Source: Sphingopyxis sp. JAI108 (lineage in GTDB: Bacteria > Pseudomonadota > Alphaproteobacteria > Sphingomonadales > Sphingomonadaceae). Taken from it: DNA of 64,000 nucleotides. The position numbers and the translations under genes were made by a program. The notes under the pieces are model-generated. The model was given only the letters and a program-made list of their open reading frames with translations. It ran no database searches and was not told the origin of the DNA. Location of the stretch: positions 62,001-126,000 of the forward strand of contig NZ_JACCCJ010000005.1 of assembly GCF_013410105.1 (NCBI RefSeq), given 5' to 3'. Below are positions 10,820 through 64,000 of this stretch, piece after piece (positions within the stretch are counted from its first letter, which is position 1; every line of letters starts with the position of its first letter).

Positions 10820-10904
10820 CTGTCTCCCTCTCTTGCCCGCACGCTGAATAGCGGAATTTGCCCGGTCGTCACAGCTGCAAGCAATTGCCGCTCGCGTCGC
10901 AAAC

Positions 10905-10939
10905 AAACACCCGCCATCGGCGATCAATGGCGGGTGTTT
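10905..10939 (-). terminator. Intrinsic terminator after the tautomerase gene
   Basis: A perfect 13-bp stem (AAACACCCGCCAT with ATGGCGGGTGTTT, 9-nt loop) lies 22 bases past the tautomerase stop. On the minus strand it is followed by TTTGTTTG. It separates the tautomerase/SDR unit from the next LysR gene. Confidence 0.85.
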
Positions 10940-10960
10940 TCGGGGGTGCGTTGACGAGAC

Positions 10961-11197
10961 TCAGCCCGGGGGACCAGCGAGCTTCTTTCGATATTCTGCG
11001 ACGGGCATTCCGCCCCAGCCCCAGTCCTCCATCTCGACTTCCTGGAAGATCACCCAGGTCCATTCGGGGGGCTTCTTGAGCACATCGAACAGAACCTGGC
11101 TCATTCCCTTATAGATAGCGGCTTTCTGCTCGGGGGTTACATGATCGACACCGGCTTCGGTGCCCTCCTTGGTGACTTGTACGGTTACGATCGGCAT
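10961..11197 (-). CDS. 4-oxalocrotonate tautomerase-family enzyme
   Basis: A 78-residue protein. The sequence begins MPIVTVQVTKEG, and the exposed Pro1 after removal of Met is the catalytic base in this superfamily. Length and the MPVAEYRKK tail fit small tautomerases. I choose the ATG at 11197 because only that start gives the N-terminal proline. It follows an SDR gene by 25 bases and ends at a strong terminator. Confidence 0.85.
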   Translation of the reverse strand: MPIVTVQVTKEGTEAGVDHVTPEQKAAIYKGMSQVLFDVLKKPPEWTWVIFQEVEMEDWGWGGMPVAEYRKKLAGPPG

Positions 11198-11222
11198 GAT
11201 CTGTCTCCTCGCTCTCGCCGGA

Positions 11223-18773: not shown

Positions 18774-19254
18774 ATTATCGGTGCGCTCGCCCGCAGCGCA
18801 AGTAACCAGCAGCGGCGCAGCGACGCAATCCGGTGGATCGCCGGATGTTACCCGGCCTCAGTCTCTCCCATCGATACGGTAACACACCCCCATTCACTGT
18901 CATTCGGTAACCTGCTGATAATAATTTGATTTATATCAAGCTCTGCACTGGCTTTCGATTCTGCGGAGATCGGGCCGGACGGACCGCCGTTTAGCTCGCC
19001 TTGCGCAAGGGAGGTACGAGCGACGCGGAGGCAAGCCTCCAGAGGAAGCGTGTTCGTGGGACGAACGTCGATTCTGGGGCGGGATTTGAGAAAAGGGGGG
19101 TGAATGATCGAAGATCGCACGGCTTTGCCCGTCATGCTCGACCCTGCAAACGTCGCACTCCATGCGCCGCGCCATCCCCTGTCGAACCCGACCACCTCTG
19201 CCAATCTCCCCAGCTCGCCCGCCCCGCGGGCCATTTCGCGTTCAAGGAAAGCTC
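18774..19254. other. 481-base divergent intergenic region
   Basis: This gap between the divergent sulfotransferase and autotransporter genes contains no convincing gene. It holds the FNR/FixK-type box at 18926-18939. The part after 19000 is purine-rich, with a GGGAGG and an AAAAGGGGGG run. The autotransporter start at 19255 has a near Shine-Dalgarno AAGGAAA. The transcription start could lie anywhere after the box, leaving a leader of up to about 290 nt. Confidence 0.6.
18926..18939. promoter_or_regulatory. Perfect FNR/FixK-type box
   Basis: TTGATTTATATCAA matches the FNR/FixK consensus TTGAT-N4-ATCAA at every defined position. It lies 152 bases from the sulfotransferase start and 315 bases before the autotransporter start. 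It is the only such perfect site I noticed in a promoter region of the window. Which direction it controls is not decided by the sequence. Confidence 0.7.
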
Positions 19255-28200: not shown

Positions 28201-31200
28201 TCGACCTGGACCAACACGGGTATCCTCCGTGTCGGCCGCCTTGGCTCCGGTACGCTGGGCATCCTCGATGGCGGCATCGTGACCGTCGCGGACATCGCTT
28301 ATATCGGCGACGACGTCGGCAGCCAGGGGACAGTCAATGTTTCGGGGCAGGACGCCAATGGCAATGCCTCGACCTGGACCGGGGCGAGCGACATCGTCGT
28401 CGGCGAGTTCGGCAGCGGCACGCTGAACATCACCGCAGGCGGTCAGGTCGGCAACCAGTCGGGCTGGATCGGCTCCAATGCCGGCAGCCAGGGGATCGTC
28501 AATGTCTCGGGTGTCGGCGCCAACGGCGCCGCCTCGACCTGGACGAACAATGGCGATGTGCTGGTCGGTTATGACGGCAACGGGACGTTGAATATCGCCG
28601 ACGGCGGCAAGGTCGTCAGCGTCGGCGGCCAGATCGGCGCCAATTCCGACGGCGTTGGTGAGGTGCTCGTAACCGGCGTCGGCTCGTCGTGGGAAAACAG
28701 CGGACGGATCAACGTCGGCCTGTTCGGCGCCGGAACGCTGCGCATTGAAAATGGCGCGACGGTCACCGGCAACGACGCGATCATCGGGGCTTCCGGAAAC
28801 GGCAACGCGATCATATCCGGCGCCGGCACGTCGTGGATCAACACCCATCAACTGAGCGTCGGTAGCTTTGGCACCGGCTCCATGCGCATCGAGAACGGTG
28901 CGAGCGTCACCAGCAATCAAGCTTATATCGGCGCCAATTCCACTGGCAGCGTCGTCGTGACCGGGGCAGGGTCGAACTGGCTGGTCACCGATTTCTCGAT
29001 GACCGTCGGCAATGAGGGCGCGGGCTCGCTGCTGGTCGAAAACGGCGGGCTGGTCCGGGCCGAGGGCGGCTTCGCGCTCGGCGTCGCGGCGGGTTCCAGC
29101 GGAACTGTGACCATTGCGGGCACGACGGGCAACCGTGGTGTTGTCGAGACCAGCCAGATCGGGGGCGGTTTGGGTACGGTCGATTTCTCGCTCGACGGCG
29201 GCGTGCTCCGCGCGACGCAGGATGAAGGCGAGTTCTTCGCCGATTTCGGTGCGAACGACGTCACGCTCGGCACAAACGGTGGCATCATCGATACCGACGG
29301 TCACAATATCGGCATTGCGCCGCGCTTTGCCGGCGCGGGCGGGCTGACGAAGGACGGCCTCGGCACGCTGACGCTGACGGGTGCCAACAGCTATGCCGGA
29401 GCCACATTCGTCAACGCGGGCACTTTGCTGGTCAATGGCGACCAGTCGGCGGCGACCGGCCTGATGACGGTGTTCGCGGGCGCGACGCTCGGTGGCACCG
29501 GCACGATCGGCGGAGATGTCGCCATGCTCGACGGCGCCATCCTTGCGCCGGGAGAAAGTGCCGGCACGCTGACGGTCGGCGGCAATCTGTCGCTCGCCGG
29601 TGGTTCGATCCTGAATTACGAGTTCGGACAGGCCGATGTCGCTGGCGGTGCGCTCAACGACCTGGTCAATGTCGGTGGCGATCTGACGCTCGACGGGACG
29701 ATCAATGTGACGGTCGCGGCGGGGGGCAGCTTCGGCCCCGGCATTTACCGCGTGTTCAACTATGGCGGCGCGCTGATCGACAACGGGCTGACGCTGGGGA
29801 CAATCCCTGGCGGCACCGGCGGCGTTTCGGTCCAGACCGCGATCGCGGGCCAGGTCAATCTCGTCAATTCGCAGGGGCTGACGCTCAGCTTCTGGGACGG
29901 CGCGGTCGGGCCCAAATATGACGGCGTACTCAACGGCGGCGATGGGGTGTGGCGCGTCGCGGGCGGCCTCAATAACTGGACCGATGCGGACGGTTCGATC
30001 AACGCCGATTATGCGCAGGACAGCTTCGCGGTCTTCGCGGGCGCGCCGGGCACCGTCACGATCGACAACGGCGGCGGTAACGTCCTCGCTTCGGGCATGC
30101 AGTTTGCGAGCGACGGCTATGTCGTGGCGGGCGACACGCTGACGCTGACCGGCGCGCAGGCGATCGTTCAGGTCGGCGACGGCAGCGTCGCGGGCGCGGG
30201 CTATACCGCGACCATCGACGCACAGATCGCGGGCACGGCAGAGCTGCTCAAGACCGACGCGGGCACGCTCGTCCTGACCGGCGCGAACAGCTACAGCGGC
30301 GGCACGCTGATCAACGGCGGCACCGTCCGGATCGGCAGCGACTCCAATCTGGGCGATGCGAGCGGCGGGCTGTCGCTCGGCGGCGGCGCACTTCACACCA
30401 CCGCCGATATCGTTTCGGGCCGGACCGTCACGCTGATCGGCGACGGCGTGTTCCGCAGCGATACGGGCACCACGCTGACGCTGACCGGCCCGGTCGGCGG
30501 GGCTGGCGGCCTCACCAAGGCGGGTGCGGGCACACTGGCGCTCGGCGGCAGTGGATCCTTCGCCGGCGCGACGACGGTCGAAGCGGGCACGCTGTTCGTC
30601 AACGGCGACTATTCGGCGGCGACCGGCGGGACAAGCGTCGCCGCCGGCGCGACGCTGGGCGGCACGGGGACGATCGGCGGCAATGTCGACTTCGCGAGCG
30701 GGGCCTCCCTCGCGCCGGGCGCAGGCGGAACGGGCACGCTGGCCATCGGCGGCAATCTTTCGCTTGCGGCCGGAACGCAGCTCGATTTCGAATTCGGGCA
30801 GGCGGGTGTCACGGGCGGCGCGCTCAACGATCTCGTCAACGTTGGCGGCGATCTGGTCCTCGACGGTGTGCTCAACGTCAGCGTCCCGACGGGCGGCGCG
30901 TTCGACGTCGGCATCTATCGCCTGTTCAACTACGGCGGCACGCTGACGAACAACGGTGTGACGTTCGGCACCATGCCGACGGGCGCCAGCACCGCCGTCC
31001 AGACTTCGGTCGCGGGGCAGGTTAATCTGGTCAACTCGGGCGAGCTGACGCTGAACTTCTGGGACGGCGCCGCCGGACCAAAGGTCGACGGCGTGATCAA
31101 CGGTGGTGATGGCGTGTGGCAAAGCAGCGCCGGAAACAGCAACTGGACCGACGCGACGGGTAACCTCAGCGCGCCCTACGCCGATGGGGCCTTTGCGGTC

Positions 31201-51316: not shown

Positions 51317-52576
51317 ATGACCGACAGTGATTTTACCCTTTCGCGCCGCAAATTCCTCGATCGGATCGCGATGGCATCGGCCGGCGCGGCGATGGCTGCG
51401 GCGGCACCCTGGGCGGCGATCGCGCAGACGCCCGTCGCCACCGGAAACCGCGTGCGCTTGGGGGTCATTGGCACCGGCGATCGCGGCCGTGCGCTGATCC
51501 AGAACATCGCGAAGACGCGCAACTGCACCGTCGCCGCGATCTGCGACAATTATGCGCCCAATATGGATCGCGCGCGCAAGCTCGTGCCCGCCGATACGCC
51601 GGGGTTCAGCGATCACCGGGCCATGCTGGATGCGCGCGGGATCGACGCGGTGGTCATCGCGACGCCGCTCGACCTTCACGCATCGCATACGTTCGATGTC
51701 CTCGACGCCGGGCTGCACGTCTGGTGCGAGAAGGCGATGGCGCGTAGCATCGCCGACTGCGGCGCGATGATCGAAAACGCGCGCGCGAAGGGCAAGGTGC
51801 TCCAGATCGGGCACCAGCGCATGTTCCACCCGACATATCTGAACGCGCTGAAGCGCGCCAAGTCGGGCGAGATCGGCGAAATTACGCAAATCCGCGCCAG
51901 CTGGCACCGCAACAACAAATGGCGGCGCAACGTGCCCGCCGACGCCACAGACGAGCAGATCAACTGGCGACTGTATCGCGACCGGTCGGCGGGATTGATG
52001 ACCGAACTGGCCACGCACCAGCTTCAGGTGTGCAACTGGTTCCTTGACGGCGTCCCGACGCGGGTGATCGGATCGGGCAGCATCTGTTTCTGGAAAGACG
52101 GGCGCGAAGTGTACGACCATGTTGCGCTGATCTACGAATATGGCGACGGGCGCAAAGCCATCTATTCCTCGCTCCTCAACAACGCACGCTACGGCTGCGA
52201 GGAGCAGATTCAGGGCAGCACGGGCACCATCGAGCCCGAACTCGGCAGGATCTATCAGGAAGTGTTGCCCAAGCAGCTCGCGCTTCAGCGCATGCAACAG
52301 GATGTCGCGCGGGGGCACAAGCGCACGGTCCCGATCGGCGGCGCGACTTGGTTCCCCGAGCTGCCGGTGACCACGCCGGGGGAATCGCTGGGCTGGGGCG
52401 AGTATGACGAGACGATGCTTCAGTTCGAAGGGTTCGGCGAGGCGGTCCGCAGCGGCCGCGAAGTCCCCGGCCTGTTGCAGCAGGCCTATTATGCCAGCGT
52501 CGCTTCGCTGATGGGCGAACAGGCGATGGACAGCGGTGAGGCGGTCGAATGGCCGCGCTCGCTGGTTACGTTCTGA
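51317..52576 (+). CDS. Tat-exported Gfo/Idh/MocA oxidoreductase
   Basis: A 419-residue protein. A Tat signal (TLSRRKFLDRIAMASAGAAM) precedes a Rossmann fold (RLGVIGTGDRGRALI). The catalytic-site segment CEKAMARS corresponds to the family E-K-P with Ala replacing Pro. The second domain contains DRSAGLMTELATHQLQVCNW, with the His expected in the active site. Likely periplasmic NAD(P)-linked sugar oxidation or reduction, with tightly held cofactor as in glucose-fructose oxidoreductase (inference). Start chosen at the ATG at 51317 because it opens the Tat signal. Confidence 0.87.
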   Translation: MTDSDFTLSRRKFLDRIAMASAGAAMAAAAPWAAIAQTPVATGNRVRLGVIGTGDRGRALIQNIAKTRNCTVAAICDNYAPNMDRARKLVPADTPGFSDHRAMLDARGIDAVVIATPLDLHASHTFDVLDAGLHVWCEKAMARSIADCGAMIENARAKGKVLQIGHQRMFHPTYLNALKRAKSGEIGEITQIRASWHRNNKWRRNVPADATDEQINWRLYRDRSAGLMTELATHQLQVCNWFLDGVPTRVIGSGSICFWKDGREVYDHVALIYEYGDGRKAIYSSLLNNARYGCEEQIQGSTGTIEPELGRIYQEVLPKQLALQRMQQDVARGHKRTVPIGGATWFPELPVTTPGESLGWGEYDETMLQFEGFGEAVRSGREVPGLLQQAYYASVASLMGEQAMDSGEAVEWPRSLVTF

Positions 52577-52601
52577 ACCGGTTTCAGCGGGAATGTCTGC
52601 C

Positions 52602-53756
52602 ATGACCTCGATCGATCGCCGCGCGCTGCTTGCTGGCGGCGGTTTTGCCGCCGTCATGGCGAGCGACGTGTTCGCCCAATCGGCCCCGCCGCCGAAGGCG
52701 CGCGCGGGGAGGGGGGCGCCGCGCGAGCCCGACGCATCGGCGCGCCACCGCATCCGCTTTGCGGTCATCGGGCTCGACCATTCGCATATCTATGGCATGA
52801 CCGACGCGCTGATCCGGGGCGGCGGCACGCTGGTGGCGATGCACGCCGCCGATCCGGCGCAGGTCGCGCCGTTTCGCCGGCGCTACGGCGACGTAAAGGT
52901 TGCGCGCAGCGAGGCGGAGATTCTGGATGACCCCACGATACAATTGGTCGCCAGCGCGTCGATTCCCGATCTGCGCGCGCCGTTGGGCATTCGGGTCATG
53001 CGTGCCGGCAAGGATTTCCTGGCCGACAAGCCCGGCATCACCGGCCTGAAACAGCTCGCCGCCGTGCGCGACGCGGTGCGCGAGACGCGGCGCAAGTTCG
53101 CGATCCTCTATTCCGAACGCTTCGAAGTGCGCGCAGCGGTCCGCGCGGGGGAGCTGGTCAAGGCGGGCGCGATCGGCCAGGTGCTCCAGACCATCAACCT
53201 TGCGCCGCACCGGCTGAACGCACCGAGCCGCCCGGACTGGTTCTGGGACACCGCGCGCTACGGCGGCATCCTGACCGACATCGGCAGCCATCAGGCGGAC
53301 CAGTTCCTCTTTTACACCGGATCGACGGAGGCCCGCGTCGTGGCGTCGCAGGCGGGCAATATGGCGATGCCCGACCGGCCGCAATTCGAGGATTTCGGCG
53401 ACATGATGCTGAGCGGAAACGGCGGCACGGGTTATGTGCGGGTCGATTGGCACACGCCCGACGGCCTCCCGACCTGGGGCGACGGGCGGCTGTTCATCAT
53501 CGGCACCGAGGGATCGATCGAGCTGCGCAAATATATCGACGTGGCGGGGCGGCCGGGCGGCAACCACCTGTTCCTGACCGACCGCAAGGGCGTGCAATAT
53601 ATGGATTGCAGCAAGGTCCCGTTGCCGTTCGGACCGCAGTTCGTCAGCGACGTCGTCGAACGTACCGATGTCGCGCAGGATCAGGCGCAGGCGTTGCTGG
53701 CGGCGGAACTGGTGCTGACCGCGCAGAAGAACGCCTTGCGTCCAGGCCGTGTCTGA
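52602..53756 (+). CDS. Second exported Gfo/Idh/MocA oxidoreductase
   Basis: A 384-residue protein with a Tat-like signal (TSIDRRALLAGGGFAAVMAS). The Rossmann fold is FAVIGLDHSHIYGMT, the catalytic Lys lies in DFLADKPGITGL, and the second-domain motif is GGILTDIGSHQADQFLFY. The glycine motif GLDHSH is atypical for this fold but occurs in exported members. Only 25 bases from the preceding oxidoreductase, so the two are co-transcribed. Start at 52602, 9 bases after AGCGGGA; an ATG at 52593 is possible. Confidence 0.87.
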   Translation: MTSIDRRALLAGGGFAAVMASDVFAQSAPPPKARAGRGAPREPDASARHRIRFAVIGLDHSHIYGMTDALIRGGGTLVAMHAADPAQVAPFRRRYGDVKVARSEAEILDDPTIQLVASASIPDLRAPLGIRVMRAGKDFLADKPGITGLKQLAAVRDAVRETRRKFAILYSERFEVRAAVRAGELVKAGAIGQVLQTINLAPHRLNAPSRPDWFWDTARYGGILTDIGSHQADQFLFYTGSTEARVVASQAGNMAMPDRPQFEDFGDMMLSGNGGTGYVRVDWHTPDGLPTWGDGRLFIIGTEGSIELRKYIDVAGRPGGNHLFLTDRKGVQYMDCSKVPLPFGPQFVSDVVERTDVAQDQAQALLAAELVLTAQKNALRPGRV

Positions 53757-53966
53757 CTGGCATGAGCGGCGCGGGTGCGCCGCTTCTCGCCGTTTCGACC
53801 CGATGCCCTCAAGCGGGGTTTTCAGGTGATGCGCCGGCGTGCCGCCGCTCGACATGGGTTGTTTTCATGAATTATGGCGCAACCGGATTGCGAGATATGA
53901 TTTATCGCATTATACAGTCATGCAAGCGCGATGGTTCAACGATGCGCTACAAGGAAGGGGATGATG

Positions 53967-56771
53967 ATGAGCAAGGCGTCCAAAGCGGTCGTGTCGGTTT
54001 CGTTGCTGCCGCTGGTGGCGGGCCTGATGATTTCCGAAGCAGCCGCATCGGAAGGGCAGACGCGTCCGTCCGAAGCGATTTCGGGCGATGCGGTCGCATC
54101 GGCGGACCAGGCAAATAGCGATCCGCAGCCCGCCGGTTCGGACGCGGAAATCGTTGTCACCGGAACGATTCGCCGGAGCCTTGAGGCGGCGGCCGAGATC
54201 AAGCGCGATTCGGTTCAGGTCGTGGATTCGATCGTTGCCGAGGAAATCGGCAAATTCCCCGACCCGACGACCGCCGCCGCGCTTCAGCGCGTGCCGGGCG
54301 TGCAGGTGACCGTGGGCGCCAACAACGAGATCACGGGCGTCGTGATTCGCGGGCTGGGCGATATTCTGACCACCCTCGACGGCCGCGAATTCTTTTCCAC
54401 CACCGGCAGAACCTTTTCCTTTCAGGACCTTCCCGCCGAAGCCTTGTCGCGGGTCGACGTCATCAAATCCGCGACCGCCGACCTCATCGAGGGCGGGATT
54501 GCAGGCAACACCGACCTTCAGTTGAACAAGCCGTTCAAGTTTCGCGACCCGACGATCGTCGTTACCGCGCGCGGAAATTACGCGACCAATGTCGAAAAGC
54601 TCAATCCGCAGTTCGGGCTCCTCGCCACCGACCGCTGGGACACCGGCATTGGCGAGATCGGCGCGCTGTTGAACGTCTCGTGGAGCCGTACCGACTATAA
54701 CCGGCCTTATCTCTATGCCCCCGTCCGCCGTTCTACCGCGACGGCGCCGTTCAACTTGCCGGGCTATGCGTCGCAGAACGTCGCGGGCGGGCTCAATGAA
54801 TATGGCTATTTCGAACGTCCGCAGGCGAATGCGGCGATCCAGTGGCAGGCGACGCCCGAACTCGAAATCTATTTCGACGGGCTTTACGCGGGCTATCGCG
54901 CGAAGCAGCAATCGGCCTTTGTCGAGGCCCAGTTGTTCAGCCCGGGCACGACGATCTCGAACCCTGTTACGAACGACAACTGCTTTCGCGCGCGCGTGAA
55001 TGCCGCCGGGTTCAACCCGACGACGGCCCAGATCGAAGCGGGAGAGTTCACGCTGCAGGACCTTTGCGAGCTCGACAGCGCGACCTATGGCAACACCACT
55101 TCGTTCGTCAGCACCCAGGCGCGCGATCAGAAGACCGACAATTACCTCTTTGGCGGCGGGTTCATTTTCGAACGGGGCCCGGGCCGCGTAAAATTCGACC
55201 TCGCATATCAGGAATCGACCTTCATCAATGAAGTGGTGATCGTCGATGTCGGCAAGCGGCTGGATGAGGTCGTGGTCGAAAGCAACGCCGGCATCGGGGC
55301 GCAGTATGAATTTACCGGAAACCCGCTGAACGACCCCACGGATTTCAGGCTCCGGAACGGGCTGAACCAGAATTTCAGTCGCGCGGACGGGTCGCTGTTC
55401 CAGGTACGCATGGACGCCGAGTTCGAGGTTGGGGGCTTGCTCGACCAGCTTCAGCTGGGCCTTCGCTTCGCCGATCGCGGCGCGACATCTAACCAGGCGC
55501 TCGTCAACCGCGCGGCACCCGGCGGCGATTCGAATACGCTGCTCAGTTCACTGGATCTGCCGTCCGACTTCCTCATTGAAGTCCCCGGCATTCCCCGGCT
55601 GAACGGTGGTGCGCCCCGTTTGTCGCCCAATCCCGATTATCTGCGATCGGCTGAGGGGCGCGACCGGCTGCGCGAAATTTACGGCGTCGCGCTGGGCGAC
55701 CCTGTTTATCAGCCGGAGCGGCGCTTCGACGCAAAGGAACGGACCTTCGCCGGCTATATTCAGGCGAAATATGAAGTCGAGCTTGGCGGGCCGCTCGTCC
55801 TCGATGGGGTTATCGGCGTCCGGCCGACGCTGACGGACCGGCAGATCGAAGGCGCGGGCGTGGTGAGCGGCGTGGTGACTCCGGTTCGTGCGAAGACGTC
55901 CGATATCGATATACTTCCCAATGCCAGCGCGCGTATCCAGTTCGGCGGCGGGCTGCAGGCCAGAGCGACCTATTCGAAAACGATCCGCCGCCCCGATTTC
56001 GGTTCGCTCAATCCGGGTTTGAGCTACATTGTGGCGACCAATCCGAACGTCCAGAATTCGGGATCGGCAGGCAATCCGAACCTGCGCCCGCAAAAGTCCG
56101 AAAGCTTCGACGCGACGCTCGAATATTATTGGAAGAGCGGCTTCGTCGCCGTGGCGGGCTATTATCGCGACATCACGGATCGCGTCATCAGCGCACCGTC
56201 GCTCGAATTCATCGACGGCATCGGATATAATATCACGCGTCCCCGCAACGTCGGCGAAGCGAAGCTCAAGGGAGTCGAAGTCAGCGGTCAGACCTTCTTC
56301 GATTTCCTGCCCGGCGCTCTGTCCGGCTTCGGCGTCTCGGGCAACTTCACCTATGCCGATTCCGAAGTCGGCGGCGACGACCGGCTTGCTGGCCTGCCGC
56401 TTCAGGGCGTCAGCAAATATAATTTCAACGCCGGACTATTCTACGACAAGTTCGGTTTGTCGGCGCGTCTCGTCTACACCTATCGGTCGAGCTATTATGA
56501 CGGCGACACGACCGGGCTCAATCTGGTTCGTCCCATCACCGACGCCGAACTGGCGGCCGGTGTCACCCCGACCAACCTGAACTATGTCCGCCCGGGCGGG
56601 CGCCTCGATTTCGGGATCGGCTATGAGCTGAACGATAATCTGCGGGTCGATGTCGGCGGTACCAATATCCTAGGCAATAAATATCGCAGCTATTTCAACC
56701 CGACTGGGTTCAACCGCGATATCCGCTGGGACGACACGATCTACACCGCCGGGATCCGGGCACGCTTCTAA
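53967..56771 (+). CDS. TonB-dependent outer-membrane receptor
   Basis: A 934-residue receptor. Three ATGs lie in a row after AAGGAAGGGG; the third (53967) has the best spacing. A signal peptide (LLPLVAGLMISEAAAS) is followed by a TonB-box-like EIVVTGTIRRS. The plug shows IGKFPDPTTAAALQRVPGV, and the beta-barrel ends in AGIRARF with the terminal Phe. The plug pattern fits the proteobacterial carbohydrate-type receptors. It probably imports the product released by the sulfatase/glycosidase pair (inference). Confidence 0.92.
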   Translation: MSKASKAVVSVSLLPLVAGLMISEAAASEGQTRPSEAISGDAVASADQANSDPQPAGSDAEIVVTGTIRRSLEAAAEIKRDSVQVVDSIVAEEIGKFPDPTTAAALQRVPGVQVTVGANNEITGVVIRGLGDILTTLDGREFFSTTGRTFSFQDLPAEALSRVDVIKSATADLIEGGIAGNTDLQLNKPFKFRDPTIVVTARGNYATNVEKLNPQFGLLATDRWDTGIGEIGALLNVSWSRTDYNRPYLYAPVRRSTATAPFNLPGYASQNVAGGLNEYGYFERPQANAAIQWQATPELEIYFDGLYAGYRAKQQSAFVEAQLFSPGTTISNPVTNDNCFRARVNAAGFNPTTAQIEAGEFTLQDLCELDSATYGNTTSFVSTQARDQKTDNYLFGGGFIFERGPGRVKFDLAYQESTFINEVVIVDVGKRLDEVVVESNAGIGAQYEFTGNPLNDPTDFRLRNGLNQNFSRADGSLFQVRMDAEFEVGGLLDQLQLGLRFADRGATSNQALVNRAAPGGDSNTLLSSLDLPSDFLIEVPGIPRLNGGAPRLSPNPDYLRSAEGRDRLREIYGVALGDPVYQPERRFDAKERTFAGYIQAKYEVELGGPLVLDGVIGVRPTLTDRQIEGAGVVSGVVTPVRAKTSDIDILPNASARIQFGGGLQARATYSKTIRRPDFGSLNPGLSYIVATNPNVQNSGSAGNPNLRPQKSESFDATLEYYWKSGFVAVAGYYRDITDRVISAPSLEFIDGIGYNITRPRNVGEAKLKGVEVSGQTFFDFLPGALSGFGVSGNFTYADSEVGGDDRLAGLPLQGVSKYNFNAGLFYDKFGLSARLVYTYRSSYYDGDTTGLNLVRPITDAELAAGVTPTNLNYVRPGGRLDFGIGYELNDNLRVDVGGTNILGNKYRSYFNPTGFNRDIRWDDTIYTAGIRARF

Positions 56772-56849: not shown

Positions 56850-58430
56850 CTAAGCCAGAAAGTCTCGAATGCGCTCGATTGCGCGCGCCCACGCAGGCTC
56901 CTTTTCGAGCAGGAGGTGATTGTGGCTTTCGAGCGCCACGAATTCGGCCTTCGGGATGCGCGCTGCGAGTTCGCGACCCGCGGCGAATGGTATTACCGCG
57001 TCGTCGCGCGCGTGTAGAACGAGCGTCGGCACCGAAACCTGCTCCAGCAGCGCGCGAACGTCGATGCGCGCAAAAGCCTCCTGCAGTCGCACCGCGTTGT
57101 CGGGCGAGGTCGACATTCGCTGCAATTCGTTGAACCACCGATGATCGGCGGCGTTCGCGTCGGGAAAGAACAGGCTGGTGAACATCTGCCGGAAGGCGGG
57201 ATTGTCCTGGCCCCAACCCTGCCGCGTCAACGTCAGCATCGCCTCACGCCGCGCGATCTCCTCGGCCGATCCGCGCAGGCGCCATCCGGCCGCATAGCCA
57301 CCGAAAAGGATCAATCTGCGAACCCGCTCGGGGTGCCGCACGGCATAGGCAATGGAAACGCTGCACCCTTGTGAAATCCCGAGGAGGTCGAAGCGATCGA
57401 GCCCAGCGGCATCGACCACGCTCACAAGATCATCGACAAAGGCGTCGAACGAGATGTCGGCGGTGTTCCAGTCGGAGAGTCCGTTGGCGCGCTCATCATA
57501 ACGCACGAGCCTGCGTTCGCGAATGATGGCGCGCAGCCAGTGCCGCCACATCGGACTTTCCCAGTCATAGTCGAGATGGTTGAGCCAGTTCGCGGTTTTC
57601 ACGAGCGCAGGGCCTTCGCCGACTACCGAATAGGCGAGTCCCGTTCCGTCGGAGGCGGTGCAGAAGCGGACATGATGGGGGGGCAGCCGGGCGTCGGAAT
57701 CATCCGTTTCAGTGATATTGGCTCCTCCAGCTGCGGCCGGGGCGCGCATCGCGGTCGGAACGGCGATCGCGGCTTCGTCGAGCTTGCGGACGCCCAGCGC
57801 ACGCTGCGCGTCTGCTTCGCTACGCCGGCCGGTGCGATCGAGCAGGTCGATCAACGCAACGCGGGCGAGCGCATCATAAGGATCGATTTCCACCCATAGG
57901 CGCGCAACTTCGAGCGCGCGTTCGGGGTCGATCGGACGGCGGATCAGTTCGCGCAGGATCGCCGCCTGCCAGCGCCGGACATCCTCGCGCATCGCCGCCA
58001 GCCACGCTTGGTAACCGTCGCATCGCGGCAACTCGAGATCGGCCAGCAGCTCGCCCTGAAGTGCGGCGGCGCGGTTCAGGGCGACCGTGTCGATCTTGCG
58101 GATATCGTCGGTGCCGACCGTGGCCAGCCGCCGCCAGTCGATGTCGATGTCCGAGCATTCGAGCCGAACCGTCTCGCGGTCTGCGACGAGCCGCGTCCGT
58201 TCGTCGTCCACGACACCGCGCAGTTTGGACAGGCTCCACCGCAGCGCGCCGCGCGGATCGTCGGGAATATCCCACAGCATGCTGCACAGATGGTCGCGCC
58301 GCACCGCGCGGTCGGTGATCGCGAGATAGGCGAGCAGGGCGCGCGTCTTGCGCGAGGAGGGGAGCGCCACGGGCAGGCCGTCGCGCTCCAGTTCCATCGC
58401 GCGCAGCAGGTTGAGCGATACCGAGGTCAT
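56850..58430 (-). CDS. BTAD-type regulator fused to alpha/beta hydrolase
   Basis: A 526-residue fusion. Residues 1-100 look like an OmpR/SARP-type winged helix (SSRKTRALLAYLAITDRAV and GALRWSLSKLRGVVDDERT). Residues ~110-240 are a helical bacterial-transcriptional-activator domain. From ~260 there is an alpha/beta hydrolase with the nucleophile elbow GISQGCSVS, acid in HARDDAVIPF and His in ESHNHLLLEKEP. I start at 58430 after GGGGGGCAAG; the upstream extension covers the divergent promoter. Hydrolase-fold regulators may sense a small ester or lactone (inference). It probably controls the divergent cluster at 58.6-61.6 kb. Confidence 0.85.
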   Translation of the reverse strand: MTSVSLNLLRAMELERDGLPVALPSSRKTRALLAYLAITDRAVRRDHLCSMLWDIPDDPRGALRWSLSKLRGVVDDERTRLVADRETVRLECSDIDIDWRRLATVGTDDIRKIDTVALNRAAALQGELLADLELPRCDGYQAWLAAMREDVRRWQAAILRELIRRPIDPERALEVARLWVEIDPYDALARVALIDLLDRTGRRSEADAQRALGVRKLDEAAIAVPTAMRAPAAAGGANITETDDSDARLPPHHVRFCTASDGTGLAYSVVGEGPALVKTANWLNHLDYDWESPMWRHWLRAIIRERRLVRYDERANGLSDWNTADISFDAFVDDLVSVVDAAGLDRFDLLGISQGCSVSIAYAVRHPERVRRLILFGGYAAGWRLRGSAEEIARREAMLTLTRQGWGQDNPAFRQMFTSLFFPDANAADHRWFNELQRMSTSPDNAVRLQEAFARIDVRALLEQVSVPTLVLHARDDAVIPFAAGRELAARIPKAEFVALESHNHLLLEKEPAWARAIERIRDFLA

Positions 58431-58575
58431 CTTGCCCCCCGAGGTGACCGTGGAAAATAGCAAATCCGCGCGCTCACGGCAATTCACACGCTTTTTACCA
58501 CGGCGCTTGCCACGACCGGGTCTCAAGAGGGGCCATCGGCGGCCCCGACCGCCTTTGCAAACGAGGAGTATCGAC

Positions 58576-58677
58576 ATGAGGAATAACGACTTCCCGATCG
58601 CGCCGATGATGGGGGCGCTTCTGGTTGCCGTACTGAGCAGCTTGCTGATCGTCGGCAGCGCCACCGCAGTCGCCTGA
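58576..58677 (+). CDS. 33-residue single-span membrane peptide
   Basis: ATG at 58576 follows a strong GAGGAG at 7-nt spacing. The sequence is MRNNDFPIAPMMGAL, then a hydrophobic helix VAVLSSLLIVGSATAVA to the stop. It is 22 bases from the diiron-protein start and so is the first gene of the cluster. It could be a membrane peptide or a short exported peptide, as ATAVA resembles a signal-peptidase site. No family recognised. Confidence 0.6.
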   Translation: MRNNDFPIAPMMGALLVAVLSSLLIVGSATAVA

Positions 58678-58699
58678 GCGCGCGGCAAGGAGATCGACC

Positions 58700-59611
58700 A
58701 TGTATCTCGACGCAGCGTTCAAGAGCGCCGTTGCCGCATCGCAGCGGGCGCCGTGGCAGATCGAGGACGTCATCGGAGACGATGACGTCCTCGATTTCTC
58801 GCGACCCTTTCTGCCCGAAGCGCTGGCGCGCACGTCGTCGCTCACCGCGCTCGACGCCGATGAGCGGTTGCTGGTCAATCATATCCGTGCGCACGAATAT
58901 CTGGGCATCTTCGGGCTGGTCGAGGAATTCATCCTGCCGTTCGTCCTCGATCATGCCCGGCCGCAGCTTGGCGACGACGATGACCGGACCCGCGCACTGC
59001 TTCAGTTCGCGAGCGAGGAAGCCAAGCATATCCAGCTGTTCAAGCGCTTTCACACCGCCTTTGAGGCTGGGTTCGGCCACGCTTGCCCGCTGATCGGTCC
59101 ACCGGCGGAAGTCGCGCGCGTGGTGCTGGGTCACGATCCCCTGTCGGTGGCGCTGACGGTGCTGCAGATCGAATGGATGACGCAGGCCCATTATGTCGAA
59201 AGCGTCCGCGGCGACCCCGATCTCGATCCGCTGTTCAAGAGTCTTCTTCGCCATCACTGGATCGAGGAGGCGATGCACGCGCGGCTCGATACGCTGATGG
59301 TCGAGGCGCTTGCGCGGGGCCGCGATGCCGACGCGATCGAAAGCGCGTTCGCGGGCTATCTCGAAATCGTCGCCTATCTCGACGCGGGGCTCGCCGCCCA
59401 GACCGAAATCAACCTCGGCATATTCGAGCGGGCTGCGGGCCGGACACTCGACAGCGCCGGCCATGGCAAATTTCTCGCCGGACAGCGGCAGGCGGCGCGC
59501 TGGACCTTCCTCGGTTCGGGCATGTCCCATCCCCGGTTCCGCGCCACCCTCGGCCAGATCGCACCCGCCGCATTGGCCAGGCTGGATGCCGTCGCGCCTG
59601 CATATTTCTGA
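58700..59611 (+). CDS. AurF-like diiron oxygenase family protein
   Basis: A 303-residue helical protein with ferritin-like/AurF ligand pairs: EYLGIFGLVEEF, FASEEAKHIQLF (E-E-x-x-H) and HHWIEEAMHARLD (E-E-x-x-H), plus further Glu in QIEWMTQAH. It would use O2 on a small substrate; relatives oxidise arylamines to nitro compounds. Near AGGAG at 58688. It lies between the membrane peptide and an osmC-type gene, all on the plus strand with gaps under 45 bases. Confidence 0.85.
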   Translation: MYLDAAFKSAVAASQRAPWQIEDVIGDDDVLDFSRPFLPEALARTSSLTALDADERLLVNHIRAHEYLGIFGLVEEFILPFVLDHARPQLGDDDDRTRALLQFASEEAKHIQLFKRFHTAFEAGFGHACPLIGPPAEVARVVLGHDPLSVALTVLQIEWMTQAHYVESVRGDPDLDPLFKSLLRHHWIEEAMHARLDTLMVEALARGRDADAIESAFAGYLEIVAYLDAGLAAQTEINLGIFERAAGRTLDSAGHGKFLAGQRQAARWTFLGSGMSHPRFRATLGQIAPAALARLDAVAPAYF

Positions 59612-59651
59612 TCAACCGAATTTTTAAAGAGCAACAAAAAGGAGTTAAAAA

Positions 59652-60215
59652 ATGGTCGCAACCACCACCTACGCCGACATCAATGGCCTCGATCTGGGCG
59701 CGCTCGGCGCGATGGTCGACAGCATCCGCGAGGATGCCGCCCAAGGGATCGTGCGGTTCCGCGTCAAGACGCGCTGGACCGGCCAGACGCGCAGCGAGAC
59801 GACGATCGAAGGCTATGAGTTTGCCGGCGAACATGTCGGACGCCGCTTCAAGATCGTCGCCGACGAACCGAGCGAGCTCATGGGCCAGAATACGGCGCCC
59901 AATCCGCAGGAACTGCTGATGACCGCACTCAATGCCTGCATGATGGTCGGCTATGTGGCCAACGCTGCGCTGCAGGGCATCGAACTCGACGCGGTCGAGA
60001 TCGAAACCCACGGCCAGCTCGACCTTCGTGGCTTTCTGGGCCTCGACGACAATGTCTCGCCCGGATACCGCGAGCTCGATTATACCGTGCGCATCGGCGG
60101 GACGGGCACAGCCGAGCAGTTCGACGCCATCCACCAGGCGGTGATGAAGACGTCGCCCAATTTTTTCAACCTCAACCAGCCGATCCGCATGAACGGCCGG
60201 CTGGAAATTCTCTGA
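59652..60215 (+). CDS. OsmC-family protein lacking the second cysteine
   Basis: A 187-residue OsmC-fold protein. The peroxidatic-type cysteine is present in LMTALNACMMVGYV. The position of the resolving cysteine reads KTSPNFFNLNQPIR with no Cys, so the standard two-cysteine peroxidase cycle is not possible. A strong AAGGAG lies before the ATG. It differs clearly from the ohr gene at 8.5 kb. It may bind or reduce a product of the diiron enzyme using an external thiol (inference). Confidence 0.85.
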   Translation: MVATTTYADINGLDLGALGAMVDSIREDAAQGIVRFRVKTRWTGQTRSETTIEGYEFAGEHVGRRFKIVADEPSELMGQNTAPNPQELLMTALNACMMVGYVANAALQGIELDAVEIETHGQLDLRGFLGLDDNVSPGYRELDYTVRIGGTGTAEQFDAIHQAVMKTSPNFFNLNQPIRMNGRLEIL

Positions 60216-60286
60216 TCGCTTTTGCCGATCGGCTCGTCACCGGGCGTGCGCTCTGCACGCCCGGCAACCACTGGAAAGTCACGACA

Positions 60287-61621
60287 ATGTTGAACGATCG
60301 TTACGGTAACCGCGTCTCCACCAGCTCGACGGCGGCGCTCGCCCATTACGACGAGGCGCTGTTACTCAACCGCCTGTACCGGGGCGATCCGATCGCCGCG
60401 CTCGACGCGGCGCTCGCCGAGGATCCCGGCTTTACCATGGCCTGGGCGGCGCGGGCTCAGATCCTCGTCCAGCAGGGCGACCGCGCCTATCTTGAGGAAA
60501 CCGAGCGTTCGCTCGATGCGGGTGTCGCTAGCGGCGGCACCGACGACGAGCGCGCGCACCTGGCGGCGGCGGCCCACTGGGCGCGCGGACGAATCGAGCG
60601 CAGCGTGAGCGGCTTCATGGCGATCGCGCGCGACAATCCGCGCGATATGATGGCGCTGCAGACCGCGCATCTGGGTCATTTCTATCTCGGGCGCGCGTCC
60701 GACCTGCGCGACGGCCCACTTCAGGCGTTGCGCGCGTTCGGGCGCGGCGACGACGGTTATCACGCGGTGCTGGGCATGGCGGCCTTCGGGCTCGAGGAAT
60801 GCGGCGATTATGGCCGGGCCGAAGCGCTGGGAAGCGAGGCGGTCGCGATAGATCCGCGCGATGCCTGGGCGCTGCATGCGGTGGCGCATGTTCACGAGAT
60901 GCGCGGCGACACCGATAGCGGGATGACGTGGCTCAACGGCAACGACGAGGCGATGGCGGCCGAATGCGGCTTTTCCTATCACAATTGGTGGCATCTCGCG
61001 CTGCTTCATCTCGATCGTAACGAGCATGATGCTGCGCTGGCGCTCTATGACAGCCGCATCCGGCCCGACCCGGACGGCGATGCGCTGCTTCAGTGGATCG
61101 ATGCGTCGGCGCTGCTGTGGCGACTGCACCTCGACGCAGTCGACACCGGCGACCGGTTTGCGCGGCTTGCCGATCGCTGGCAGCGCGCGAGCGACGACCG
61201 TTGGTACGCGTTCAACGATTGCCATGCGATCATGGCCTTCATCGGGGCCGGGCGCCTCGACGATGCTCGGACCTGCCTCGCTTCGTTGACGCGGGCCGCG
61301 GACCAGGACGACGACAATGCTTTCGTTGCACGATCGATCGGTCTTCCGGTGGCGGCCGCCCTGATCGCCTTTGCAGAAGGGCACTATGGAGAGGCTTCCG
61401 AAGCGTTGATCGCGATCCGCGGAATGGCGGCGCGTTTTGGCGGGTCGCATGCACAGCGCGACATTCTGTCGCTTACCGCGCTCCACGCGGCAAAACGCGG
61501 CAAAATGACGTCCGCCGCCGCCGCTCTGCTTGCCGAACGGCGATTTCACAAGCCTGCGAGTCCGTGGGTCACTCGCCTTGCCGATGACAAGATGGAGGGC
61601 AGATTCCTGACGATATCCTAG
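60287..61621 (+). CDS. TTC38-like tetratricopeptide protein
   Basis: A 444-residue all-helical protein. TPR-like helices run through the whole length (DPGFTMAWAARAQILVQQGD; DPRDAWALHAVAHVHEMRGD). The signature segment FSYHNWWHLALLHLDRNEHD and the following Asp- and Trp-rich part match the TTC38 family, conserved from bacteria to animals and without known function. No signal peptide. Last gene of the cluster, 71 bases after osmC, followed by a hairpin. Confidence 0.82.
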   Translation: MLNDRYGNRVSTSSTAALAHYDEALLLNRLYRGDPIAALDAALAEDPGFTMAWAARAQILVQQGDRAYLEETERSLDAGVASGGTDDERAHLAAAAHWARGRIERSVSGFMAIARDNPRDMMALQTAHLGHFYLGRASDLRDGPLQALRAFGRGDDGYHAVLGMAAFGLEECGDYGRAEALGSEAVAIDPRDAWALHAVAHVHEMRGDTDSGMTWLNGNDEAMAAECGFSYHNWWHLALLHLDRNEHDAALALYDSRIRPDPDGDALLQWIDASALLWRLHLDAVDTGDRFARLADRWQRASDDRWYAFNDCHAIMAFIGAGRLDDARTCLASLTRAADQDDDNAFVARSIGLPVAAALIAFAEGHYGEASEALIAIRGMAARFGGSHAQRDILSLTALHAAKRGKMTSAAAALLAERRFHKPASPWVTRLADDKMEGRFLTIS

Positions 61622-61633
61622 GTCGGGGCCACA

Positions 61634-61666
61634 GCTGCTTTCCGGCCTGCTTTTCCGGAAAGCAGC
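61634..61666 (+). terminator. Hairpin after the TPR gene
   Basis: A perfect 12-bp stem (GCTGCTTTCCGG with CCGGAAAGCAGC, 9-nt loop) starts 12 bases after the stop. No T run follows on the plus strand, so it is at best a weak intrinsic terminator or an mRNA-end stabiliser. Confidence 0.45.
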
Positions 61667-61684
61667 GCGGCAACCAACGGCCGC

Positions 61685-61778
61685 TCAATGATGGTGCGAC
61701 GGCCCATCCGCGGTCACTTCACCTAAGTCCGGGACGATGAAGGACACGGGTGTGCCGGTCAGAACCTTGTTCGGGCGT
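61685..61778 (-). pseudogene. Degraded 3' end of a DUF6130 gene
   Basis: The ~94 bases align with the last part of the intact DUF6130 gene (7331-7425). They share GATGAAGGACACGG, GTCAGAACCTTGT and CGGGCGTC, and end in the same kind of His-rich C terminus plus stop. Two bases are missing after CCTTGT, shifting the frame. Nothing upstream of it is preserved; it abuts an integrase fragment. Confidence 0.7.
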
Positions 61779-61891: not shown

Positions 61892-63388
61892 TCAGTGCGG
61901 AACCGCGCCGAGTTCGACTCCCGTCTTGTCGTGCAGTGCGAATTTGTCGACGATGTCGGCGCTGGCGCGATTATAGCCGACGACCTCGACCGAGCGGCCT
62001 TCGCGCCGCAGACGTGCGATGATCTTGTCAAGCGCGCCGACCCCCGAAATGTCCCAGAAATGGGCGGCTGACACGTCGATGAGGATGCTCGACGCGGTTT
62101 CTTCCATCTGGAAGCTGCGTGTGAAGCGGTCGACCGAGGCGAAGAAAATCTGGCCGGTCACGAAATAGGTCGCGCTGTTTCCGTCGGGACCGGTCTCGCG
62201 GCGCACCTCGAACATGCGCTGTACCTTGGCGGCGAAAAAGATGCCCGACAGCAACACGCCGGCGAGGACGCCGAGCGAGAGATCGTGCGTCGCCACGACG
62301 ACGACCACGGTCGTCACCATGACGATCGATGACGTCGGAGGATGGCGCCGGAGGTTGGCGATCGAGTTCCAGCTGAACGTCCCGATCGACACCATGATCA
62401 TGACCGCGACGAGCGCGGGCATCGGCATCCGGCCGACATAGGGGCCAAGCAATGCGAGCAGGATCAGCAGCGTCGCACCGGCGGTGAAGGTGGAAAGCCG
62501 CGTGCGACCGCCGGACGTCACGTTGATGACCGACTGGCCGATCATCGCGCAACCGCCCATGCCGCCCACGAAGGCAGCGGCGATATTGGCGCTGCCTTGT
62601 CCCGCGCACTCGCGGCGCTTGTCGCTGTCACTGTGCGTCATGTCGTCGACGATCTGTGCGGTGAGGAGGGATTCGAGGAGGCCCACCGCGGCCATCGTCA
62701 GCGAATAGGGAAGGATGATCCGCAGCGTCTCCAGCGTCAGCGGCACATTGGGCAGAACGATGCTCGGCAACCCCTGGGGCAGCTGGCCCATGTCGCCAAC
62801 GGTGTTCACTGGCAGGCCAAAGCCGATGCTGATGGCAGACAGGATAAGAATGGCGACCAGGGGCGAAGGCACCGCCTTGGTCAGGCGCGGAAGCAGGTAG
62901 ATGATCGCGAGCCCGCCGGCGATCATCGCATAGGCTTCCCAGGTCACGTTGGTGAGCTGCGGGAGCTGCGCCATGAAGATGAGGATCGCCAGCGCGTTGA
63001 CGAACCCGGTGATGACCGAGCGCGACACGAATTGCATGACGAGGTCGAGCCGCAGCAGGCCGGCGATAATCTGGAGGATGCCCATCAGGATCGTCGCGGC
63101 GAAAAGATATTCGACGCCATGTTCGCGGACGAGCGGGACGACGAGCACGGCGACCGCGGCGGTCGCGGCCGAGATCATCCCGGGCCGGCCCCCCGTGAAG
63201 GAGATGACGATCGCGATCGCGATCGAGGCATAAAGGCCGACACGCGGATCGACGCCGGCGATGATCGAAAAGCCGATCGCTTCGGGGATCAGTGCGAGCG
63301 CGACGACGACGCCTGCGAGAATATCGGCGCGCGCGGTTGCCGCGCCGGCGAACCATTGCTGGCGATATGGGGTAAATCCGTTGAACAT
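61892..63388 (-). CDS. SulP-family anion transporter with STAS domain
   Basis: A 498-residue membrane transporter. About 10-14 hydrophobic segments occupy residues 20-400, with the family pattern GVVVALALIPEAIGFSIIAG near the start and VGGMGGCAMIGQSVIN in the middle. The STAS domain (SSILIDVSAAHFWDISGVGA) lies at the C terminus. It carries sulfate, bicarbonate or a related anion; which one cannot be told. It is preceded by a LuxR-type gene on the same strand, 176 bases away. Confidence 0.92.
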   Translation of the reverse strand: MFNGFTPYRQQWFAGAATARADILAGVVVALALIPEAIGFSIIAGVDPRVGLYASIAIAIVISFTGGRPGMISAATAAVAVLVVPLVREHGVEYLFAATILMGILQIIAGLLRLDLVMQFVSRSVITGFVNALAILIFMAQLPQLTNVTWEAYAMIAGGLAIIYLLPRLTKAVPSPLVAILILSAISIGFGLPVNTVGDMGQLPQGLPSIVLPNVPLTLETLRIILPYSLTMAAVGLLESLLTAQIVDDMTHSDSDKRRECAGQGSANIAAAFVGGMGGCAMIGQSVINVTSGGRTRLSTFTAGATLLILLALLGPYVGRMPMPALVAVMIMVSIGTFSWNSIANLRRHPPTSSIVMVTTVVVVVATHDLSLGVLAGVLLSGIFFAAKVQRMFEVRRETGPDGNSATYFVTGQIFFASVDRFTRSFQMEETASSILIDVSAAHFWDISGVGALDKIIARLRREGRSVEVVGYNRASADIVDKFALHDKTGVELGAVPH

Positions 63389-63564: not shown

Positions 63565-63882
63565 TCATTTGAGTTCGAAGAGTGTCGGTTCATCGGGCGG
63601 CGGCGTTTCGATGACGAGCAGGCCGAGGTGCATGGCCTGCGTAATCAGGTGCGCGCGGTTGCGCGCGTTCAGTTTCAGTCGCACATTTTCGATATGCCGT
63701 TCGACGGTGCGCGGTGCGATATTGATCTCGAGCGCGATCTGCTTGGCCGAGCAGCCGACGGCCACCAGCTCCAGTATTTGATGTTCACGAAAGGTCAAAT
63801 GCGGTTCGACGTTCAAAGCATTTTGATGCACGGTGCAATCCCCTGACACCCAAGGCGTGGACTCTTTGCGACCGACGAGCAT
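63565..63882 (-). CDS. LuxR-type helix-turn-helix regulator
   Basis: A 105-residue protein whose C-terminal half is a LuxR/GerE DNA-binding domain: LTFREHQILELVAVGCSAKQ and APRTVERHIENVRLKLNARN. The N-terminal ~35 residues have no recognisable receiver or ligand domain. The start is the only ATG in frame (63882); a GTG at 63909 after AGCAGGT is a good alternative. It is upstream of, and may regulate, the SulP transporter. Nothing further was seen between 63910 and 64000 except an AT-rich promoter-like stretch. Confidence 0.8.
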   Translation of the reverse strand: MLVGRKESTPWVSGDCTVHQNALNVEPHLTFREHQILELVAVGCSAKQIALEINIAPRTVERHIENVRLKLNARNRAHLITQAMHLGLLVIETPPPDEPTLFELK

Positions 63883-64000
63883 CTTTTGCGCGGCAAAGCC
63901 GCCACCCACCTGCTCTAGCGGGCAGCATATCCCTTTGCGCGCTGTTTAGCAATTAACGTAAGCTAATTAAGTATCTGGCGGCACGGATAATGCCAATATC

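Follow-up and report, generated by a model that had tools for sequence, protein, structure and literature searches.

A 64,000-nucleotide stretch of the genome of Sphingopyxis sp. JAI108 (hereafter the window) contains five adjacent genes: a regulator (REG), a micropeptide (PEP), an AurF-like diiron protein, an OsmC protein and a TPR protein (TTC). The question raised by this locus is which of the genes belong together and what they might do in combination. All five were confirmed between positions 56850 and 61621 (Table 1). We consider it reasonably probable, from comparisons of sequences and loci, that PEP, the AurF-like gene and the OsmC gene, joined here by TTC, constitute a small inducible oxidation operon under a dedicated one-component switch. 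The hydrolase domain of REG would bind, and probably cleave, a small ester- or lactone-like ligand, after which the SARP half of REG is predicted to activate the operon by binding three 12-bp repeats in the divergent promoter region. The AurF-like enzyme would then oxidise a small substrate with O2 at its seven-ligand diiron site, the chemistry of its family making an amine nitrogen the likeliest target, and the one-cysteine OsmC protein may react with, reduce or trap the reactive species so formed or a related compound that reacts with thiols. The transmembrane micropeptide, to go by its association in locus counts, would act as a membrane partner where a hydrolase-type switch, AurF and OsmC are combined, and TTC would be an accessory.

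Table 1. Features of the locus, in window coordinates
Feature	Position	Strand	Basis
REG regulator, 526 aa, ATG at 58430	56850..58430	-	Pfam PF00561, AfsR/EmbR profile match, AF2 model
Divergent promoter region, 145 bp, between REG and the peptide gene	58431..58575		Coordinates
Predicted operator, three 12-bp direct repeats	58483..58514	+	Comparison of loci; genome scan
PEP micropeptide, 33 aa, single TM	58576..58677	+	SD, same place in 13 loci, shuffle control, codon changes
AurF-like diiron protein, 303 aa	58700..59611	+	PF11583, ligand columns, AF2, structural comparison
One-Cys OsmC protein, 187 aa	59652..60215	+	PF02566, alignment, 2opl match
Hairpin, 10 base pairs, no T-run, in the OsmC/TTC gap	60240..60264	+	Folding score
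TTC, TPR protein, 444 aa	60287..61621	+	TPR-type matches in Pfam and PDB
Strong hairpin region 3' of TTC	61622..61700	+	z -3.4

The four genes from PEP to TTC lie on the same strand with intergenic gaps of 22, 40 and 71 nt, an arrangement consistent with an operon; no electron-donor gene was found within it, and a simple scan of the locus found no sigma-70-like promoter. Judged by comparison of loci, REG, PEP, the AurF-like gene and the OsmC gene are one unit to which TTC is a local addition, so that the grouping of five genes proposed in the initial annotation stands for the first four, which recur as a unit in other genera, but not for TTC, which is an irregular member. The refuting condition set in the initial annotation, that the genes should rarely be together elsewhere, does not therefore hold for regulator, peptide, diiron gene and OsmC gene. 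The substrate might, as was suggested there, be a lipid, a peptide or a secondary metabolite. Regulators fused to a hydrolase turn up repeatedly next to these genes rather than once, and a single cysteine is usual in this branch of OsmC proteins. The suggestion that the system is undescribed agrees with the open-licence literature searched, from which the gene combination is absent: no paper there brings AurF and OsmC together, none joins 'arylamine N-oxygenase' with 'OsmC family', and nothing on this system was returned for OsmC with diiron, AurF with globin or cyclase, SARP or BTAD with hydrolase, or TTC38 with StaR.

Pfam and the fold led to the assignment of the diiron protein to the AurF family. 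The PF11583 score is 29.6 bits against a curated cut-off of 29.6, which places the protein only just within the profile. The seven predicted metal ligands (E75, E107, H110, E158, H186, E190 and H193, in the pattern E, ExxH, E, H-x3-ExxH) are each missing from no more than one of 52 close rows, L054 being gapped at E107/H110 and L040 having Gly at E158, and a second AurF subfamily has all of them in each of its 10 rows. A C-terminal AurF fragment (L057) was dropped from the counts, as were five duplicates (L100, L101, L105, L106 and L107, equal to L034, L055, L033, L046 and L056, respectively), recognised by the length of the contig and their position on it. In structural comparison, the AF2 model (pLDDT 94) is closest to AurF (2jcd, Z 20.1) and CmlI (Z 20.0), with the next family at 16.2 among the families listed; Foldseek E-values place R2-like ligand-binding oxidases (1.3e-4) above AurF (3.5e-4), while TM-scores favour AurF and CmlI. 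A sequence search of the PDB with the profile of the family returned two matches, neither of them meaningful (best E 0.006). The ligands, the nearest fold and the Pfam score at its cut-off together uphold, at the level of sequence and model, the original designation as an AurF-like diiron oxygenase. The protein appears to share with the N-oxygenases AurF, CmlI and AzoC and with DnfA both the fold (Z 20) and the full set of seven metal ligands, the third His among them, and in the portions of the published accounts available the ligand lists of AzoC and DnfA match its own; it differs from AurF and CmlI in sequence, with about 13% identity in the structural alignment, and in having an OsmC partner. 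Of 385 genomes sampled from the class to which the window belongs, 24 carry the family (E 1e-40). Of the 26 class-level matches, wide flanks were taken for all except G386, G397, G466 and G468 (second subfamily) and G000 and G103, the latter two being in the set before class-level sampling. This orphan family is now tied to a partner protein, a type of regulator and a predicted operator, which makes its function approachable by simple genetics.

A different chemistry, which we regard as rather unlikely, would make the locus a reactive-nitrogen module, in which the substrate oxidised by the AurF-like protein is hydroxylamine or a similar nitrogen compound, the OsmC protein handles S-nitroso or N-oxide by-products and the switch senses a related stress. 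DnfA, whose seven-ligand site is of the same kind, turns hydroxylamine into N2 according to the part of its description available (PMC9478400), and a bacterial globin gene lies 3' of AurF or OsmC in five loci (L031, L032, L051, L056 and L109), four of which have a cyclase behind the globin, with an HNOBA match in the L031 cyclase. The globin loci are, however, only five, with L031 and L032 close relatives; the examined stretches of the window and the sphingomonad loci hold no globin, and the proteins scanned include none recognisable as a regulator of nitrogen stress.

In the inducible operon that we favour, REG is the switch. Its C-terminal part (about residues 250-526) matches Pfam Abhydrolase_1 with an E-value of 1.4e-17 over residues 292-512, which, together with the opposite strands of REG and PEP, confirms the claim of a regulator with an alpha/beta hydrolase divergent from a 33-residue peptide; the triad S353-D477-H505 is invariant in all 13 aligned rows. 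The N-terminal half alone (about residues 1-220) has no Pfam match, but a profile built from 13 sequences matches AfsR (8hvr, E 3.9e-6) over its positions 2-218, and also EmbR (2fez, E 5.8e-5); designed TPR proteins outscore both, but only across the last ~55 positions. Pfam detects BTAD in 3 of the 13 regulator rows, four of which lack the N-terminus, and not in the REG of the window itself. The AF2 model has a mean pLDDT of 84 and a pTM of 0.55. By these matches REG is a SARP-type, AfsR-like DNA-binding half joined to an alpha/beta hydrolase with an intact triad. It would share with the SARP regulators AfsR and EmbR an N-terminal DNA-binding and BTAD region and direct-repeat sites upstream of targets, but it is fused to a hydrolase, is located outside Streptomyces and has a repeat unit of 12 bp where that of classical SARPs is 11 bp. 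The hydrolase domain has the fold and intact Ser-Asp-His triad both of hydrolase-fold receptors (D14/KAI2, RsbQ) and of esterases and enol-lactonases (PcaD); unlike the receptors it is fused to a DNA-binding domain, and its scores are closest to esterases and lactonases rather than to receptors.

In relatives the hydrolase domain is joined to AraC or winged-helix domains instead of the SARP half, which makes three kinds of DNA-binding domain joined to a hydrolase ahead of these genes. Because different DNA-binding domains carry it beside the same genes, the hydrolase is the likely sensor, and as such provides a handle for ligand discovery. In L016 the domain fused to the winged helix groups with the BTAD-fused hydrolase domains of L012 and L013 (99/99 in the ABH tree), and the three also group in the AurF tree (90/95, on an unstarred branch). 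The mirroring of the hydrolase-domain and AurF trees is weak (mirror-tree correlation r 0.36), the AraC-fused hydrolase domains share only 41-43% identity with that of the window, and four loci (L102, L103, L104 and L117) have a hydrolase-fused regulator but neither OsmC nor peptide. It seems quite improbable that the locus is a signalling loop, in which the AurF-like and OsmC proteins would produce or alter a small signal molecule containing nitrogen, to be read by the REG hydrolase, with the fast-evolving micropeptide as membrane sensing partner. Plant D14/KAI2 receptors, which read their hormones, offer an analogy for such a loop.

The predicted operator for the SARP half of REG consists of three 12-bp direct repeats, TTCACACG-n4-TTACCACG-n4-TTGCCACG, and in phase with these a fourth CACG lies at 58475. 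Allowing up to one mismatch, the genome of the window has no other such site. The repeats were first noticed in the window alone and afterwards scored across loci. A score of at least 15 is reached by all 18 loci that have a SARP/BTAD gene within 5 kb and by 2 of 43 others, and a score of at least 17 by 14 of the 18 and 1 of the 43. The Fisher values of these counts are not independent tests, since the repeat unit was refined on the same loci and the loci are related. L054, BTAD-less in an earlier repeat scan, is counted among the 18 after a better search, and L052, without upstream sequence, was left out of the operator and peptide counts. A good site is present in L020, where the stretch examined holds no BTAD gene, and another lies upstream of OsmC-TTC in a genome without AurF (G057), under a BTAD-hydrolase regulator. 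The repeats are absent from the winged-helix locus L016, which scores 12 of 21, with 180 of 200 shuffles as good.

SARP sites are direct repeats upstream of target genes, and SARPs control natural-product clusters, according to the portion of a published account available (PMC10972967); AurF, CmlI and AzoC act in such pathways, again from partial accounts. The locus could on these grounds be a tailoring cassette for secondary metabolism, which we consider distinctly improbable: the cluster is flanked in the window by a TonB receptor, a Gfo/Idh oxidoreductase, a sulfate-type permease and a LuxR-type protein, and there is no NRPS or PKS match among the scanned part of the neighbours in related loci.

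The OsmC protein is the proposed partner of the AurF-like enzyme. This protein (PF02566; nearest solved structure 2opl, E 4.6e-56) does have the one cysteine noted in the initial annotation, C96. Where a second would lie it has S168-P169, a pair unchanged in 27 of 27 rows, and it is therefore no classical two-Cys peroxidase; as a special feature the single cysteine was rejected, because 2opl also carries Ser-Pro at that position. The protein thus resembles the 2opl branch of the OsmC/Ohr family, and differs from Ohr/OsmC thiol peroxidases in the missing second redox cysteine and in the linkage of its gene to AurF. The subject of PMC4069020, in the part of that paper available, is not an OsmC protein. 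Among 199 genomes of the family, AurF occurs in 9 and OsmC (E<1e-20) in 12, including all 9, and OsmC adjoins AurF in 9 of 9. Among close loci it adjoins AurF in 29 of the 49 that are assessable, in terms of downstream sequence only, some contigs being short upstream; L028 and L048 (contig ends) and L054 (400-bit cut) are omitted. OsmC is not beside AurF in the other 20, nor in L054, and hence AurF does not need OsmC. These loci, and the 3 of 199 genomes with OsmC and no AurF, would suit a passenger pairing devoid of joint function, which is nevertheless very improbable, as the adjacency recurs across records of several phyla (including Acidobacteria-labelled L023-L026 and Planctomycetota-labelled L039 and L050, in the latter two with OsmC divergent from AurF instead of following it) and, within the second AurF subfamily, in 4 of the 10 loci examined.

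PEP is preceded by GAGGAG, and its 33 residues with a single predicted TM agree with its annotation as a membrane peptide. By criteria fixed after a first look at the loci, an SD-preceded hydrophobic micro-ORF lies upstream of AurF in 13 of 18 hydrolase-regulator loci (17 with the fused regulator, and L111 with an adjacent hydrolase gene) against 0.05 expected from Markov shuffles, and in 13 of 13 loci combining hydrolase-fused regulator, AurF and OsmC against 1 of 48 others. Between the window and its relative L019 there are 7 synonymous and 3 non-synonymous codon changes; outside this Sphingopyxis pair identity to the window peptide is 9-27%, with no invariant column. The micropeptide is, on these alignments, conserved by position and not by sequence, and is a candidate small membrane protein of a kind missed by sequence searches. 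As a general AurF subunit it was rejected, 47 of 61 AurF loci being without a candidate. A RiPP-like precursor oxidised by the AurF-like enzyme would also be small, first in the operon and next to an oxidase, but the lack of sequence conservation, the one hydrophobic stretch and the presence of a candidate in just 14 of 61 AurF loci leave that idea, which we rejected, hardly any probability.

The remaining gene, TTC, putatively that of a TTC38/StaR-like protein, gives no matches in Pfam, NCBIfam and the PDB beyond weak ones and those of TPR type. The hairpin in the gap before it may weaken read-through from OsmC (the z of the whole gap is -1.7, which is weak), and the hairpin region after it, which has no T-run and is not in the terminator scan, is possibly the operon end. 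Among AurF loci TTC occurs only in the window's species (the window and G201) and one congener (G252, the same as L019), where by its distribution it is an accessory gene of the operon. It was rejected as a core member, the only other case beside these genes being G057, where it accompanies regulator and OsmC; in G017 and G007 it lies apart from the cluster.

The cluster headed by REG, a regulator with an N-terminal SARP-type half and a C-terminal alpha/beta hydrolase, forms a genuine module of regulator and enzymes that recurs in other genomes, and the predicted wiring of this module (regulator, operator and operon) is supported by comparison. The window spans bases 62001-126000 of contig C5 in a 4.05-Mb genome, and the initial annotation located the five genes of the cluster correctly: REG, on the minus strand, is followed on the plus strand by genes for a 33-residue transmembrane micropeptide, an AurF-like diiron protein, an OsmC protein and a TPR protein (TTC), with gaps of 22, 40 and 71 nt. 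Pfam upheld the assignments as alpha/beta hydrolase, OsmC, TPR and AurF, the last with a score right at the cut-off. The proposal that the five genes form one unit stands for the regulator, peptide, AurF-like gene and OsmC, which recur in other genomes, but not for TTC, whose distribution across the family and genus makes it only optional.

Regulator, predicted operator, flanking genes and longest open frame in the window
Feature	Coordinates	Strand	Remarks
Open frame	19162-33216	plus	4684 aa; longest listed within bases 1-53500
Gfo/Idh oxidoreductase	52536-53756		flanking gene
TonB receptor	53931-56771		flanking gene; Xanth-Caul type
REG	56850-58430	minus	Pfam alpha/beta hydrolase
Predicted operator	58483-58514		between REG and peptide gene
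SulP-type permease with STAS	61892-63388		flanking gene
Short LuxR-type HTH protein	63568-63909		flanking gene

The AurF-like gene is present in 9 of 199 genomes of the family, the window's own counted, and in all nine an OsmC homologue is the adjoining downstream gene; the corresponding OsmC branch, at E<1e-20, is found in 12 family genomes, all nine AurF-like carriers among them. Since only 3 of 80 genus genomes carry the AurF-like gene (the window's own and a same-species genome included), it is an accessory gene in the genus. A profile search found AurF-like genes in 24 of 385 class genomes, 13 of them via a more distant subfamily, and a contig scan added 39 further loci, most of them MAGs, which by record title belong to Sphingomonadales, other Alphaproteobacteria, Acidobacteria and Planctomycetota. 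The AurF-OsmC pairing recurs far beyond a single lineage: OsmC adjoins AurF in 29 of the 49 close loci that could be judged (51 scored above 400 bits) and in 4 of 10 examined loci of the distant subfamily. As AurF without adjoining OsmC is nonetheless common (20 of the 49), the pairing is not obligatory. None of the open papers searched has a text that contains both AurF and OsmC.

The window alone first showed four CACG spaced 12 bp apart, and after testing on other loci the predicted pattern became three units TTNCCACG with a 12-bp period. All 18 loci with a gene for BTAD, a domain of SARP-type regulators, within 5 kb score at least 15/21, compared with 2 of 43 other loci, and 14 of the 18 score at least 17, compared with 1 of 43, an association of the putative operator with BTAD genes that is strong but not independent, because the unit was refined on loci later counted and because the loci share ancestry. 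Two of the 18 (L108 and L109) have the BTAD gene downstream of AurF, and another locus (L020) has a good site and no BTAD gene in the sequence stretch covered. In an earlier set of 15 BTAD loci, lower scores result with other periods or on the reverse strand, and the score is attained by none of 200 shuffles in 14 loci and by 3 of 200 in the other (L044). In its own genome the site occurs once at up to one mismatch, and a backward control pattern gave no occurrence. PMC10972967 describes direct repeats as a known SARP binding mode with a classical unit of 11 bp, of which the predicted 12-bp unit would be a variation.

Candidate peptides were defined as hydrophobic ORFs, 24-65 codons long and with a Shine-Dalgarno match, in the 300 bp upstream of AurF. 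Of the 18 loci whose regulator is hydrolase-fused or which, like L111, have an adjoining hydrolase gene, 13 carry such an ORF, where second-order Markov shuffles predict 0.05; of the 43 other loci, one does (L049). The 13 are not a phylogenetically independent count, because 12 of them are from the window's family or sphingomonad records; in the sole outsider (L046) the peptide is further from AurF. These 13, and no other loci, combine a hydrolase-fused regulator with AurF and OsmC; the remaining five of the 18 (L102, L103, L104, L111 and L117) are without OsmC. Beyond the Sphingopyxis pair (the window and its relative L019), the peptides share 9-27% identity with that of the window; within the pair there are seven synonymous and three non-synonymous codon changes. 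The micropeptide is probably translated, with a membrane role that would not depend on its exact sequence.

All 13 aligned relatives keep the triad Ser353, Asp477 and His505 of REG's hydrolase half, whose closest folds are those of esterases, PHB depolymerase and enol-lactonase, with D14/KAI2/RsbQ lower down. A 13-sequence profile aligns the N-terminal half along its length with AfsR and EmbR, although both are outscored by designed proteins in short TPR stretches. Among relatives, an AraC-type domain (from Pfam in L015 and L018, from a profile in L017) or a Trans_reg_C domain (from Pfam in L016, from a profile in L102, L103, L104 and L117) can be fused to the hydrolase instead, and BTAD regions beside the same AurF gene also carry TPR, AAA or cyclase partners. 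L016 clusters with L012 and L013, both BTAD-fused, in the hydrolase tree (99/99) and with less support in the AurF tree (90/95); the best reading is that the DNA-binding half was exchanged in situ. Since the AraC-fused hydrolase domains are distant, at 41-43% identity to the window's, they may be separate recruitments. The domain swapping and the intact triad point to a sensing role for the hydrolase domain.

High-identity TTC is confined in the genus to the three AurF carriers, and two distant copies (~30% identity) are located elsewhere. At E 1e-40 it occurs in 4 of 199 family genomes: the window's own, G017 (66% identity), G057 (62%) and G007 (37%). No other cluster member was found within 13-15 kb around TTC in G017 and G007. 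In G057 OsmC and TTC lie opposite a BTAD-hydrolase regulator, separated from it by a stretch with an operator-like site (18/21), and neither AurF nor a peptide candidate was found at this locus. This scatter and the G057 arrangement mark TTC as an optional component that goes with the regulator and OsmC.

The AlphaFold model of the diiron protein is confident (pLDDT 94), and its best VIA-align matches are AurF (Z 20.1) and CmlI (Z 20.0), the next family reaching 16.2; Foldseek E-values place R2-like oxidases first and AurF ninth, while TM-scores favour AurF/CmlI. Seven metal ligands are listed for AzoC (PMC6783550) and DnfA (PMC9478400), and spacing and conservation map them to E75, E107, H110, E158, H186, E190 and H193; E75 was taken as the first ligand in preference to E76, since position 76 is Arg in the distant subfamily. 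The family is predicted to be equipped for AurF-type chemistry; the cluster's reaction we infer from the protein families only. OsmC has one cysteine, with Ser-Pro at the second position in 27 of 27 aligned rows, so a two-cysteine peroxidase cycle is unavailable, and the single thiol could react with an electrophile, a hydroperoxide or an N-oxide. The cluster might instead act on reactive nitrogen, a reading supported by the bacterial globin that follows AurF or OsmC in five loci (L031 9522-11013, L032, L051 8916-10447, L056 9629-10006 and L109), in four of which a class III cyclase comes after the globin; such neighbours could be a sign of O2 or NO chemistry, but no globin was found at the window's cluster.

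A Phenylobacterium MAG (L053) has two AurF-like copies within 9 kb (1754-2641 and 9210-10103), with a methyltransferase after the first. Genome G366 (L056 and L104), whose contig C41 corresponds to the Desertibaculum record containing L056, also has two AurF-like genes, one with BTAD and OsmC, the other with a Trans_reg_C-hydrolase regulator and without OsmC. Distant TTC homologues of two other genus members (L128 and L129) each adjoin a similar 848-aa protein, and in L046 an SBP56 selenium-binding protein gene (10385-11848) lies 2.4 kb downstream of the AurF start.
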